Source: Halopelagius inordinatus
GTDB lineage: Archaea; Halobacteriota; Halobacteria; Halobacteriales; Haloferacaceae
DNA length: 64,000 bases
Reading direction: 5' to 3'
Assembly: GCF_900113245.1 (NCBI RefSeq)
Contig: NZ_FOOQ01000001.1
Span: 1,364,001 to 1,428,000 of the forward strand
Shown here: in pieces, positions 18,758-46,142 of the stretch
How positions within the stretch are numbered: the first letter of the stretch is position 1
How the letters are laid out: every line of letters starts with the position of its first letter
Notes under the pieces: model-generated
The model's input: only the letters and a program-made list of their open reading frames with translations
The model's database searches: none
Told to the model about the DNA's origin: nothing
Translations under genes and position numbers: made by a program

Positions 18758-19624
18758 TCAGTCGTACTCGTAGAACCCCTTCCCGCTCTTTTTTCCGAGG
18801 TCACCGGCGGCGACCTTTCGCTTGAGCAGATAGGCCGGTTTGTACCGGTCGCCGAGTTCCTCGAACAGCGTCTGTGAGGCGTCGAGGCAGATGTCGAGGC
18901 CGATGTGGTCCGCCAGTTCCAGCGGTCCCATCGGGGCGTTCGTCCCGAGTTTCATCCCGCGGTCTATGTCCTCTTTGGAGGCGACGCCCTCGTCGTAGGC
19001 GCGGATGCCCTCGTTCAACCACGGCATCAGGATGCGGTTCGTGACGAATCCGGGTTTGTCGTCGGACTCCCACGTCTCCTTGTCGAGGCGGGCCGCGAAC
19101 TCGTGTGCGAACTCGACGACTCGGTCGGGCGTCTTCTCGCCGACGACCACCTCGACGCCCTTCATGACGGGGACGGGGTTCATGAAGTGGACGCCGACGA
19201 CGCGTTCGGGCGCGTCCGTGGCGGCGGCGATGGTCGTCACCGAGAGCGTGCTCGTGTTCGTCGCGAGCACCACGTCCTCGCCGAGGAGTTCGTCCAAGTC
19301 GGCGAAGATATCCCGCTTTACGTCCATGTTCTCGACTGCGGCTTCGACGACGGCGTCGCACGCGGAGAGATCAGATAGCTCCGTCGTCCCGGAGATTCGC
19401 TCGCGCGCGGCCTCCGCCTCGCCGTCGGTCAACCGGTCGCTTCCGACGAGTCTGTCGAGGCTCTCTTCGATGCTCGAAAAGCCCCGTTCGACGTACTCGC
19501 GTTCGATGTCGCGCATCACCACGTCGTATCCCGCCGTCGCGGCCACCTGCGCGATGCCGTTGCCCATGGTGCCCGCGCCGACGACGCCGACCGTCTCCAC
19601 CTCGTCGATGTCACGAATGTCCAT
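18758..19624 (-). CDS. 3-hydroxyacyl-CoA dehydrogenase
   Basis: A 288-residue NAD-dependent enzyme oxidising (S)-3-hydroxyacyl-CoA, in beta-oxidation or butyrate-type metabolism. The N-terminus is a Rossmann fold with VGVVGAGTMGNGIAQ. GVHFMNPVPVMKGVEVV carries the catalytic-region HFMNP motif, and DKPGFVTNRILMPWLNE is the C-terminal domain hallmark. It has the single-function HbdA-like length. The ATG at 19624 is the fold-proximal start. Confidence 0.92.
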   Translation of the reverse strand: MDIRDIDEVETVGVVGAGTMGNGIAQVAATAGYDVVMRDIEREYVERGFSSIEESLDRLVGSDRLTDGEAEAARERISGTTELSDLSACDAVVEAAVENMDVKRDIFADLDELLGEDVVLATNTSTLSVTTIAAATDAPERVVGVHFMNPVPVMKGVEVVVGEKTPDRVVEFAHEFAARLDKETWESDDKPGFVTNRILMPWLNEGIRAYDEGVASKEDIDRGMKLGTNAPMGPLELADHIGLDICLDASQTLFEELGDRYKPAYLLKRKVAAGDLGKKSGKGFYEYD

Positions 19625-19793: not shown

Positions 19794-20936
19794 ATGGTGA
19801 CCGAAGGCGGCGACGCCGGTGACGGCGTCAACGAGTACGTCGAAGCGGGACGAGTGAGCGACCGCGACCGCCTGTCGGATGGGGACGAGGGCACCGACGC
19901 GGCGGACGACGGAGAGATTCCGCTTCCGTGGAACAGCATCGACGAGACGAGCGCGGACGACGACGGCGACGGGGGGCCCGAGACGTTCGAGGACCTCCGG
20001 TTCGTCGGACCGAAGACGGCGAGCGCCCTCGAATCGTCGGAGATAGAACTGTCAGATTTCGTCCGTAAGCGCATCTCCTACCGGGAGTTGACCGAAGTCG
20101 GCGTCAACCCCGGCGTCGCGGCGAAGATACGACGCGAGCACTCGCTGTCGTGGTCGTTCGACGCGACGGACACGGACCTCTCGCGGCGGTCCACGCAGGT
20201 TCGCGGCTTAGACGACGACGAACGCGAGTGGATAGCGAGTTCGACGGGGTGGGGCGACGACGAGGCGGGCGACGAATCGGACGGCCGCGCGGACGGCGAA
20301 ACCGAATCCGGCGACTGGGAGACGGAGACCGGAGAGACGGGCGGACGGCGCGCCGGTCGGCGAGAGACGTCCGCAGAGTCCGACGGCGAATCGGCGTGGC
20401 GCGAACAGGCGGAGACGGGACCGTCCGGCCGCGAGACGACCGAGTCCGACGGCGAGGCGGAGTGGCGAAAGGAGACGCCGGAGACGGGCCGCAGCGATTC
20501 GACCCCCGAAGACGAGGAGGCGGCGTGGCGCGCCGGTTCGACGCGCGAGGGCGACGGCGAGTCGAACGTGACCGAGGGAGAGGCGGCGTGGCGGAGTCGA
20601 AGCCCCGAGAGCGACGACGAGGCCGTGGGCGACGAACCGGACGGGCGTGCGAGCGACGAGGCGGCGTGGCGGTCGAACGCCGAGTCGGACCGCGACGCGA
20701 CGTCGGCCGCGGCGGACGCCGAAGCGACGTGGCGCGCCGAGAGCGCTCCGACGCCGGTGACGGTCATAGACGGCGTAGACGAGACGGACGCGGCGGAACT
20801 GGCCGACGCGGGCATCCGCTCGATTCGACGCCTCGCTACCGCCGACCCAGAGAGCGTCGCCGACGCACTGCAACTCGACCAGACGCTCGTCGAAGGGTGG
20901 GTCAGCGCCGCGGACGAGCGACTCGACGGAGTCTGA
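19794..20936 (+). CDS. Acidic protein with HhH-like ends and a central 'AWR' repeat region
   Basis: 380 residues from the ATG at 19794. Residues about 55-125 look like a helix-hairpin-helix module (LRFVGPKTASALESSE, VGVNPGVAAKIRREHS). The middle has six imperfect repeats of about 22-32 residues, each marked by a Trp-Arg/acidic pattern: SAWREQ, AEWRKE, AAWRAG, AAWRSR, AAWRSN, ATWRAE. The end (about 330-380) is a second HhH-like fold (VIDGVDETDAAELADAG). HhH modules usually bind DNA or proteins. The repeats have no known role that I recognise. A GTG at 19770 is an alternative start. Confidence 0.75.
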   Translation: MVTEGGDAGDGVNEYVEAGRVSDRDRLSDGDEGTDAADDGEIPLPWNSIDETSADDDGDGGPETFEDLRFVGPKTASALESSEIELSDFVRKRISYRELTEVGVNPGVAAKIRREHSLSWSFDATDTDLSRRSTQVRGLDDDEREWIASSTGWGDDEAGDESDGRADGETESGDWETETGETGGRRAGRRETSAESDGESAWREQAETGPSGRETTESDGEAEWRKETPETGRSDSTPEDEEAAWRAGSTREGDGESNVTEGEAAWRSRSPESDDEAVGDEPDGRASDEAAWRSNAESDRDATSAAADAEATWRAESAPTPVTVIDGVDETDAAELADAGIRSIRRLATADPESVADALQLDQTLVEGWVSAADERLDGV

Positions 20937-21053: not shown

Positions 21054-21063
21054 AGTTTATATG
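21054..21063 (+). promoter_or_regulatory. TATA box of the aldolase-fbp operon
   Basis: AGTTTATATG centred about 27 bases before the ATG at 21087, the spacing of a leaderless haloarchaeal transcript. Confidence 0.6.
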
Positions 21064-21086: not shown

Positions 21087-21884
21087 ATGAGAGCCGGAGC
21101 CGACTCCGCCATCACGCGGAACGGGAAGTCGATCATCCTGGCGTACGACCACGGACTGGAGCACGGTCCGACCGACTTCGACCCGGTGCCGGAGACGGCG
21201 GACCCCGAGGTGTTGTGGGACCTCGCGACCCACTCTGCGGTGACGGCGTTCGCCGTACAGAAAGGCGTCGCAGAGGCGTACTACCCGTCCTACGAGGACG
21301 ACGTGTCGCTGCTCGCGAAACTGAACGGGACGAGCAACCTCTGGATGGGCGAACCCGATTCGGCCGTCAACTGGACCGTCGAGAACGCCGCGGACCTCGG
21401 AGCGGACGCCATCGGATTCACCCTCTACGGGGGGTCGAACCACGAGGTGGAGATGCAAGAGGAGTTCCGCGACGTCCAAGAGGCCGCCCGCGACGAGGAC
21501 CTCGGCGTCGTGATGTGGTCGTACCCGCGCGGGCAGGGGCTGAAAAACGACAAGAAGCCGGGCACCATCGCCTACGCCGCCCGTCTCGCCCTCGAACTCG
21601 GTGCGGACATCGCGAAGGTGAAGTACCCCGGTTCGGAGGAGTCGATGCGACGGGCGGTGCGCGCCGCCGGACCGGCGGGCGTCGTCATGAGCGGTGGGTC
21701 GAAGACGTCCGACCGCGACTTCCTCGAAACGGTCGAATCGGCGATGGACGCGGGCGCACAGGGGCTGGCCGTCGGACGCAACGTCTTCCAGCGCGAGGAC
21801 CCCGAAGGCATCCTTGACGCCTTAGAGCAGGTGATATTCGAGGAAGCCACCGCCGACGAAGCGCTCGAAACGGTGGGGATCTGA
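21087..21884 (+). CDS. Fructose-1,6-bisphosphate aldolase, archaeal class I (DhnA family)
   Basis: 265 residues. A Schiff-base aldolase making or cleaving fructose 1,6-bisphosphate. Marks are [12 protein letters not shown] near residue 17, [12 protein letters not shown], the Schiff-base lysine segment [13 protein letters not shown], the phosphate loop [10 protein letters not shown], and [10 protein letters not shown]. The related ADTH synthase of aromatic biosynthesis has a similar sequence, but the gene is directly followed by fbp, which favours a gluconeogenic aldolase. Start at 21087 ([15 protein letters not shown]) is set by the promoter spacing. Confidence 0.85.
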
Positions 21885-21885
21885 G

Positions 21886-22788
21886 ATGGCCACCGACGAC
21901 GACGCCACCTCCGACCGCGTGAACTCGGTGGATCGAGTGTTCAAGAAGGTGTTAGACGCCGTCGCGAAGACCGCGCCCGAGATTCGAGAGGGACTTCCGA
22001 CGCGGCGAGCGAAGGTCGAAACCGAGAACCCGTCCGGCGAGACGCCGTTGGCCGCCGACGTGTACGCCGACGAACTGCTCTGTGAACGCATCGGAGACAT
22101 AGAGGGCGTCGGCACGTACGCGAGCGAAGAACGCCCCGAAGCCCAGACCGTCGGAAGCGGTCTCTCGGTCTGCGTCGACCCTCTCGACGGCTCTTCGAAC
22201 CTCAAGCCCAACAACACGATGGGGACCATCGTCGCCATCTACGACTCTCCGCTTCCGGCCACCGGCGACGACATCCTCGCGGCCGCGTACGTCCTGTTCG
22301 GGCCGACGATGACGATGATAACGGCGTACGACGACACCGTCACGGAGTACGTCATTCAAGACGACGGCACGTACCAAGCGATTCGCGTGGACGTGACGCT
22401 CCCCGACGACCCGACGGTGTACGGGTTCGGCGGGCGCGTCGCGGACTGGGTCGACGAGATAACCGAGTACGTCCGCGAGATAGAGTCCGACCCGTCGATG
22501 AAACTCCGGTACGGTGGCGCGATGATCGGCGACGTGAACCAGGTTCTCACCTACGGCGGTATCTTCGCGTACCCGACGCTCGCGGACGCGCCGGAGGGGA
22601 AACTCCGCATCCAGTTCGAGGGCTACCCCGTCGGCTACATCGTCGAGACGGCGGGCGGAGCCTCGTCGGACGGCCACCAGTCGCTTCTGGCCGTCGAGAA
22701 AGACGACCTGCACGCGCGGACGCCGGTGTACGTCGGCAACGAATCGCTGGTCGACGGCGTCGAGGCCCACCTCTCGGACGACGACTGA
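21886..22788 (+). CDS. fbp: Class I fructose-1,6-bisphosphatase
   Basis: A 300-residue Mg-dependent phosphatase releasing fructose 6-phosphate, the committed step of gluconeogenesis. Metal-site residues lie in YASEERPE and in [19 protein letters not shown] (DPLDGSSN); [17 protein letters not shown] is the C-terminal substrate region. It starts one base after the aldolase stop, so the two are cotranscribed and probably translationally coupled. Confidence 0.95.
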
Positions 22789-44480: not shown

Positions 44481-46142
44481 ATGATTGACGTTCCGGGATG
44501 GGTACCGATACAACAGGGGGCGATAGTCGTCGCGTTCCTCGTGGCCGGAATCGCCGTCTACGCGATCGACCGACCGGGGGGTCGGTGGGGGGCCGCGCTC
44601 CGTCGGCGGTTCCTGCTCGGGATTCCGTGGGGGACCGTCGTGACCGTCGGGTTCGTCGTCGGGGTGTATCTGTTCTTACAGGGCGGACTCCGTCACTGGC
44701 ATACGCCGGTGACGATTCCGTTCCGCGCGTGGTCGTACTTTTATCCGCTCGGCATGGTGACCGCCGGGTTCTCACACAACGGCGTCGGACACCTGCTCGG
44801 GAACCTCGCGGCGACGCTGACGCTGGCTCCGTTGGCCGAGTACGCGTGGGGCCACTACCCGCGCAAACGGGGGTCTACGTCGATGTCGTCGTGGCGGACG
44901 AACCCCTACGTGCGAGCGTTTGTCGTCTTCCCCGCCGTCGTCCTCGTCGTCGGCCTCGCGACCTCCGTCTTCGCGCTCGGACCGGTAATCGGGTTCTCCG
45001 GCGTCGTCTTCGCGTTCGCGGGGTTCGCACTCGTGAACTATCCGCTGAAGACCGTCGTCGCGTTGGCCGCCGGGCGCGCACTCCGTCTCGTCTACAACGC
45101 GATGCAGGAACCGACCGTCACCGCGAGCGGTCGTCCCACTTACATCACGCCGTGGTGGGCTGACATCGCGATTCAGGGACACGCGCTCGGCCTTTTCATC
45201 GGCGTCATCTTGGGTCTGTACGTCGTCCGCGCGCGGCCTGCGACCGACCGCCCGTCGGCGCTGAAACTGTGGACCGGGTCCGTGCTCTTCGCCGTCTCGC
45301 AGTCGATGTGGGCCATCTACTGGTACCGCGGCGGCGAGACGTACGTCCTGTTTCGCGCCGTCGGCCTCGCTCTCGTCGTCGTGCTGGCGTTGGTCGTCGT
45401 CTTCGCCGCCGTCACCTCGGACCGCCCCACGTTGACGCACGCCTTCGACGGCCAGTTCTCCTTCCGGCGGTGGCAGGCGGGCGCGGCCTGTCTCGTCGTC
45501 GCCGCCGCCGCCGTCTCCGGCCCCGCGGTGCCGTACAACCTCTACACCGCGAACGGAGGTGACCTGCCCGGCGAACCGGTGCAGGTCGAAGATTACGAGG
45601 TGACGTACGCCGAGGACGTGCCGAACGGGATGGTCTCGGCGTTCCAGTTCGACGCGTTCGGCGAGACGACGAACGTCGACACGTCGGGGGTGATAGTCGA
45701 AAGCGAGTCCCGCGCCATCTGGACCACGGCGGTGAGCAAAGGCCGATTGGCGTTCGCGGGGAGAGCCCCCATCACCCTCGGCGGCGTCGGGTGGCGCGAG
45801 ACGGTGTACGCCGAACGCGACGGGTGGGTCGCCGTCGGCGGCGGGACTGCCTACAGGGTCGCCCTCCGCAACGACGGCGAGTCGCGCATCGTCCACACCT
45901 CCGAGGCGGCGACCGCAGGCCCCGTCATCGCCGGACGGAACGTCTCCGTCGTCCCGACGGCGGACGGCTACTACATCGAAGTAGAGCGCAGAGACGAGAC
46001 GGTGAGCGCTCTCGTCCCCGAACGAGGCGAGTCGGTCACCGTCGAACAGATAACGTTCGTCCGAGAGAAAAACAGAGTCTACGCGGAACGCGACGGAACG
46101 CGCGTCCGCGTCCTGCAGAAAGAGCGATATCGCGGGTCCTGA
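44481..46142 (+). CDS. Rhomboid-family intramembrane serine protease with long C-terminal domain
   Basis: 553 residues. Residues 1-350 hold the rhomboid core: TAGFSHNGVGHLLGN (about 98-112), active-site GxSG in VIGFSGVVFAFAG, and the catalytic His in IQGHALGLFIGVIL, plus extra helices. Residues about 365-553 form an outside domain, beta-rich with VQVEDYEVTYAEDVPN and EVERRDETVSALVPER. Role: regulated cleavage of membrane or exported proteins. Start at ATG 44481 (MIDVPGWVPIQQG). Confidence 0.85.
   Translation: MIDVPGWVPIQQGAIVVAFLVAGIAVYAIDRPGGRWGAALRRRFLLGIPWGTVVTVGFVVGVYLFLQGGLRHWHTPVTIPFRAWSYFYPLGMVTAGFSHNGVGHLLGNLAATLTLAPLAEYAWGHYPRKRGSTSMSSWRTNPYVRAFVVFPAVVLVVGLATSVFALGPVIGFSGVVFAFAGFALVNYPLKTVVALAAGRALRLVYNAMQEPTVTASGRPTYITPWWADIAIQGHALGLFIGVILGLYVVRARPATDRPSALKLWTGSVLFAVSQSMWAIYWYRGGETYVLFRAVGLALVVVLALVVVFAAVTSDRPTLTHAFDGQFSFRRWQAGAACLVVAAAAVSGPAVPYNLYTANGGDLPGEPVQVEDYEVTYAEDVPNGMVSAFQFDAFGETTNVDTSGVIVESESRAIWTTAVSKGRLAFAGRAPITLGGVGWRETVYAERDGWVAVGGGTAYRVALRNDGESRIVHTSEAATAGPVIAGRNVSVVPTADGYYIEVERRDETVSALVPERGESVTVEQITFVREKNRVYAERDGTRVRVLQKERYRGS

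Follow-up and report, generated by a model that had tools for sequence, protein, structure and literature searches.

Tryptophan-anchored motifs in the acidic linker of a haloarchaeal DUF7409 protein: a candidate array for protein docking

Why a haloarchaeal protein should carry six tryptophan–arginine motifs within one acidic linker is the question raised by an open reading frame at 19794..20936 (+ strand) of the window, the 64,000-nucleotide stretch of DNA analyzed here, whose source genome (G000) comprises 3.5 Mb in 14 contigs. The encoded DUF7409/HhH protein of 380 residues has a folded domain toward each end. DUF7409 (PF24158), with HhH-like helices, was matched by its Pfam HMM at residues 68–114 (19995..20135, +) with 83.7 bits against a cut-off of 27.8 and with the whole profile covered (1–47 of 47), and an HHH_5 domain (PF14520) was matched at residues 325–372 (20766..20909, +) with 29.3 bits against a cut-off of 27. 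The HhH-like ends attributed to this protein in an earlier note on the same DNA are therefore borne out. DUF7409, HHH_5 and DUF4332 were the only families found in a Pfam search of the protein at E values up to 5. Whereas the match to the whole DUF7409 model, well above cut-off, places the protein in that family, the 47-residue model itself excludes the Trp array and the C-terminal HhH domain. The linker between the two domains spans 198 residues (122–319) and is acidic, with a net charge of –37 across residues 122–320. The net charge across residues 1–63 is –18, and the acidic N-terminal tail contains an EIPLPW motif (W46; 19914..19931, +) also present in orthologues from genera g25 and g6. 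With respect to the start codon, the congener has Asn at the place of the ATG and the orthologues have Val next, so the true start may be the GTG at 19797.

Within the linker, a motif scan located Trp-Arg motifs on the + strand at W202 (20388..20411), W224 (20454..20477), W245 (20517..20540), W266 (20580..20603), W292 (20658..20681) and W313 (20721..20744). All six fit the pattern E-x-[AET]-W-R, and the intervals between them are 22, 21, 21, 26 and 21 residues. When the composition of residues 155–321 (167 residues) was held fixed, six WR pairs were reached in none of 20,000 shuffles (maximum 5), and the spacing of the motifs is more even than expected from random placement (coefficient of variation 0.087, p about 0.00015). 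These results confirm the initial description of an acidic linker with six regularly placed Trp-Arg motifs. Three further Trp residues, W146, W153 and W175, also lie in the linker. The exact E-A-A-W-R DNA pattern had 6 matches in the source genome, of which this gene accounts for 3, and a reversed control had 17, so a motif common to many proteins is not supported by this exact-spelling scan.

The nature of the repeat unit became clearer from orthologues, which were taken from 83 loci of the same family (f1), from 40 more in families f2, f4, f6, f7 and f10, and from nine further loci of a class-wide search, one of which (L151) duplicates L104. In a set of 91 linkers (L063–L154 minus the duplicate L151, all 91 resolved by a loose parser), length ranges from 47 to 305 residues and Trp number from 2 to 9, the two being correlated (rho 0.80, n = 91); three or more Trp are present in 90 of the 91. 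Glu is the most frequent residue at position –3 from Trp, and position +1 is occupied by Arg in 135 cases, Val in 107 and Thr in 54. Arrays of the AWR type occur in g1 (the genus of the window), g25, g6 and g31 of family f2, those of the AWV type in g3, of the GDWTP type in g28 and f7, and of the EWPE type in g9. The constant element is thus Trp, not Trp-Arg, and different genera have amplified differing motif forms. The earlier note's choice of Trp-Arg as the repeat unit is to that extent not supported. The variation in copy number that it had set as a mark of docking is seen between genera, but both tested species of the window's own genus have six motifs.

Two Trp sites are nearly universal. 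The first, ERAWVAASSGDW in its family form and EREWIASSTGW in the window protein (20220..20252, +), follows DUF7409; the second is an EAAWR motif directly before the C-terminal HhH domain, represented in the window protein by the widely conserved W313 copy. An E-x-x-W(R/Q/V) motif near the C-terminal domain was found in 81 of 83 proteins of f1, 13/13 of f2, 5/5 of f6, 7/7 of f7 and 1/2 of f10. Family f4 keeps the first Trp motif (20/21) and has an EAAWR-type motif in only 2 of 21 proteins; its linkers are short (51–58 residues, 2–3 Trp), indicating that the array is not essential to the DUF7409 family. Ahead of the last EAAWR there is often a conserved (A/T)DGSGD element, GSGD or GSGE being present in 79 of the 91 linkers, though not in the window protein.

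Arrays in the strict sense, with at least two E-x-[ASTE]-W-R motifs, were present in 24 of 131 proteins, namely in g1 (2/2), g25 (5/5), g6 (8/9) and f2/g31 (9/10). The g31 arrays belong to a different family (f2) from those of g1, g6 and g25 (f1). On a tree computed from the domains only (a quick search on 131 rows that left 45 of 127 inner branches open), the strict AWR arrays entail four gains or losses, each of them required by starred branches; a looser label (at least three W[RQ]), under which two f7 proteins whose motifs have a different context are also counted, gives 4 changes, 3 of them forced. Since some of these changes may be losses, the count of separate array origins is not fixed by the tree.

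Whether Trp is maintained by selection was addressed by aligning same-genus linkers (76 of the 91, from 13 genera) as nucleotides, with simple match scores and no residue scoring, and with the first 45 and last 18 linker residues excluded, as these hold the two universal motifs. Of 1028 aligned codons for spacer Trp, 999 (97%) were conserved, as compared with 64–67% for Ala, Asp/Glu, Arg and other residues; these numbers refer to ordered within-genus pairs and hence are not independent, and the nucleotide alignment may yet anchor slightly on the TGG context. In the same alignment, 129 of 1157 Trp were lost to gaps or frame shifts versus 5970 of 15317 of the 'other' residues. For g1 alone the figure is 8 of 10 spacer Trp kept, and g2 has no spacer Trp. 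Trp also makes up 3.86% of 11,460 linker-like residues of DUF7409 proteins versus 0.48% of 3720 control residues, the latter drawn from 463 further acidic ORFs of the window and of these loci that were picked by an acidity proxy rather than by annotation, many of them mutually orthologous, with the window gene counted twice (in the window and as L063). No such excess over the control was seen for Phe, Tyr or Leu. Judged from these aligned sequences, the figures show that selection keeps Trp in a linker that is acidic and, by prediction, disordered, and in which the array has repeatedly changed. Random drift in the linker, which the earlier note had expected to reveal itself through unconserved Trp, is rejected on the strength of both comparisons, and the orthologue pattern that it had linked to docking, a varying number of motifs with retention of Trp, is the one found.

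These data bear equally on the idea of neutral low-complexity expansion, in which recent tandem DNA duplication would generate repeats without function. High-GC low-complexity linkers grow easily, and apparent recent tandem copies were found in some orthologues (G046, G009). For the window gene, however, Tandem Repeats Finder returned one weak 27-nt unit of 1.9 copies and nothing else, and the motif copies here are therefore no fresh DNA duplication. Combined with the scarcity of Trp in other linker-like stretches and with the finding that the best preserved spacer residue is Trp, which has a single codon, this makes neutral expansion very improbable. Taken together, the motifs are more numerous than chance would give, selection preserves Trp, and in more than one lineage longer linkers carry larger arrays.

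In terms of structure, an AF2 model of a compact orthologue (L065, 206 residues, 62-row alignment) had a mean pLDDT of 81.5 and consists of two confident helical domains with a low-confidence middle. Its conserved EAAWR motif falls in a helix at residues 132–143 (pLDDT block means of 89 and 95) ahead of the core at residues 144–206, and this level of confidence suggests that the EAAWR helix packs on the C-terminal HhH domain. The model of the window protein has a mean pLDDT of 64.7, with 159 of 380 residues under 50 and 72 at 50–70. Its predicted helices cover W202, W245, W292 and W313, with W224 and W266 lying outside, and helix confidence is good near W313 only and low for the other copies. 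As modelled, the W313 motif is part of a helix ahead of the C-terminal domain and not of the free linker.

The C-terminal domain finds its best PDB profile matches in NusA (E 0.0013) and RadA (E 0.005). Structural matches of L065, which cover about residues 144–206 only, i.e. the C-terminal core, gave VIA Z values of about 9 to 11 for RadA, RAD51, Pol theta and NusA, a range common for small helical folds. Such similarities would fit an adaptor that serves the machinery of transcription (NusA-like) or recombination (RadA-like) and whose array recruits several factor copies to DNA-bound complexes. We consider this role improbable, as the fold is common to many unrelated proteins, the gene context is metabolic, and Pfam detects no S1, KH or RecA-ATPase domain. 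The dual HhH fold and weak profile similarity are indeed shared with NusA AR1/AR2 and the RadA/RAD51 N-domains, but the protein is without the other domains of either group and has the extra EAAWR helix before its core. It is not a NusA, there being no N-terminal, S1 or KH domain besides the AR-like one in the Pfam search at E up to 5, nor a RadA/RAD51 recombinase, since no RecA-type ATPase family was matched by Pfam; RadA models cover residues 322–377 and 323–375 only, far below their own cut-offs.

HhH folds often bind nucleic acid, and both ends had at first been viewed as putative nucleic-acid-binding folds. By extension, the Trp-Arg motifs could themselves touch DNA or RNA, with Trp stacking and Arg placed on phosphate. 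In line with such contacts, the DUF7409 hairpin [VIC]-G-[PE]-x-[ST]-A is kept in 99 of 131 orthologues, and an I-R-R element is invariant in the 62-row alignment. The C-terminal HhH domain, however, is acidic (–10 in the window protein, median –6), has the canonical G-h-G in 33 of 131 orthologues and is nearest to the NusA AR and RadA/RAD51 N-domains, and binding of nucleic acid at both ends is therefore not supported. With respect to the motifs, the strongly acidic linker and the presence of Val, Thr or Pro in place of Arg in other lineages that retain Trp argue against direct nucleic-acid contact, which we regard as doubtful.

The reading that we favor, with a probability of about 0.5, is that of an adaptor with two HhH-type ends whose disordered acidic linker is a multivalent array of Trp stickers for protein docking. 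The linker would act as a string of weak Trp-anchored stickers, each motif (E-x-x-W-R-x-x-[SAT] here) folding to a short helix on binding, with its Trp entering a hydrophobic groove of a partner protein, and the several copies would provide avidity or clustering. The conserved EAAWR helix before the NusA-AR-like HhH domain looks like the source from which the amplified copies were duplicated. Because of this resemblance, the C-terminal domain, of the same or another molecule, would be the simplest receptor; and as EAAWR is modelled as part of that domain, additional copies could bind at that site in trans, joining molecules. With its own C-terminal domain as receptor, the protein would link to itself; the main alternative partner would be an oligomeric enzyme encoded by the neighboring gluconeogenic genes. 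Docking by the array is what we infer from the retention of Trp under a varying motif count, the part of the originally proposed multivalent docking platform that finds support; a constant Arg and nucleic-acid binding by both ends do not. If docking is correct, Trp-sticker arrays would have evolved more than once within one archaeal orthologous family, with Trp kept and the surrounding motif replaced between genera, and would offer a compact system for the study of multivalent-linker evolution and of weak hydrophobic docking at very high salt. A widespread, unstudied family of haloarchaeal proteins would also become linked to a cluster of gluconeogenic genes. The term DUF7409 occurs in no paper of the literature searched, and no paper on an archaeal or haloarchaeal disordered protein with Trp motifs was among the matches listed, subscription literature being outside the scope of both searches.

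The pyrenoid linker EPYC1 has a WR-containing motif. EPYC1 (PMC10473226) and PYCO1 (PMC10288592) are, in the portions of these papers available, the nearest systems that work alike, being disordered repeat proteins with short repeated stickers, and no homology to them is claimed. The PYCO1 text available describes KWSP motifs that are helical when bound and whose Trp is needed, and stickers that are unevenly distributed (PMC10288592), whereas the motifs of the window protein are even. As set out in the accessible part of PMC11570498, sticker linkers are largely disordered and have repeated elements 20–120 residues apart; the window protein agrees in its share of residues with pLDDT under 50 and in its intervals of 21–26 residues, though only 4 of its 6 motifs lie in predicted helices. 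It differs from EPYC1 and PYCO1 in its folded HhH ends and with respect to a Rubisco partner, as no RuBisCO_large match was found in its own genome or in that of the congener (G007). Rubisco as a general partner is thus rejected.

The gene for the DUF7409 protein is flanked by a divergent 3-hydroxyacyl-CoA dehydrogenase (HADH) gene (18758..19621, –) and followed by genes for a DeoC/LacD-type aldolase (21087..21884, +), taken as fructose-bisphosphate aldolase, and fructose-1,6-bisphosphatase (FBPase; 21886..22788, +). Of the 83 family loci, where a few of the misses are at short contigs, 71 have FBPase downstream on the same strand, 42 have aldolase there and 67 have a divergent HADH; the corresponding numbers for the 40 loci of five other families are 37, 35 and 30. 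In part of family f2, Rubisco is nearby as well: 13 genomes with a strong DUF7409 match were sampled, 7 have a Rubisco match, and in all 7 Rubisco lies within 5 kb downstream of DUF7409 on the same strand. At f2 loci such as L180 (G170), aldolase and FBPase lie between DUF7409 and Rubisco where the locus was read.

This setting gives reason to entertain an alternative in which the array, the NusA-AR-like HhH domain or both would bind FBP aldolase or FBPase, clustering gluconeogenic enzymes as pyrenoid linkers cluster Rubisco. FBPase and inositol monophosphatase have a common fold. NusA AR2, which has the same fold as the C-terminal domain (6ib8), binds the inositol monophosphatase SuhB with a Kd of 94 nM according to the available portion of PMC6614801. 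Other observations weigh against such a scaffold. All 15 tested genomes without DUF7409 keep FBPase, and Rubisco, as noted, is without a match in the genome of the window. The aldolase gene has its own TATA-like box (21056–21061), and the gap before it has a median of 140 nt (75 of 123 loci, where located), so that co-transcription in an operon is not implied. Moreover, a search for partner signatures, in which FBPase loci L170–L173 (multi-copy genomes) and the duplicate L151 were left out, revealed no column that consistently tracks DUF7409 presence in FBPase (109 rows with DUF7409 and 15 without; largest frequency difference 0.43) or in aldolase (84 with and 12 without; largest difference 0.54). 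The latter concerns column 140, which is Pro in 54% of the rows that have DUF7409 and Gly in all 12 that lack it, a pattern that kinship alone could explain. In g13, where both DUF7409 states occur, neither enzyme has a fixed difference; g6 has five in FBPase, and in g22 42 FBPase and 11 aldolase columns differ between one row and two, too thin a sample to read. On balance, enzyme clustering appears unlikely, although less so than the machinery and nucleic-acid alternatives. A fuller version, which we offer as a long shot, is a haloarchaeal scaffold resembling a pyrenoid linker, with Trp stickers clustering FBP aldolase and FBPase (in part of f2 also Rubisco) in a cytoplasm of multi-molar salt; the stickers would have been copied from the helix of the protein's own NusA-AR-like domain, and genera would have rebuilt the array around the same Trp.

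With respect to regulation, the window was scanned with a TrmB-like site pattern in the form known for Halobacterium, which gave one match at 45969, away from this gene; 22 of 100 shuffles also have one. For Haloarcula hispanica, the available text of PMC10817205 reports TrmB binding between paaH and fbp, an interval that seems to be the counterpart of this locus.

Within the same family, 84 of 170 genomes have a match to the DUF7409 model (83 above cut-off), and for the class the number is 151 of 292 genomes sampled (132 above cut-off); by this model, roughly half of those searched lack the gene. Among 14 named control genomes, only Haloferax volcanii has a match, which, together with the strong acidity of the proteins, points to a haloarchaeal source of the window. 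In genomes that lack DUF7409, no DUF7409-like ORF was found in the roughly 1.5 kb of fetched sequence flanking FBPase. Genera g6, g13 and g22 are patchily without DUF7409 although FBPase stays, a pattern that points to repeated loss. Finally, weak DUF7409 matches (model positions 4–47) were observed in a second protein of about 600 residues in G034, G009, G060, G032 and others, which is perhaps another HhH enzyme.
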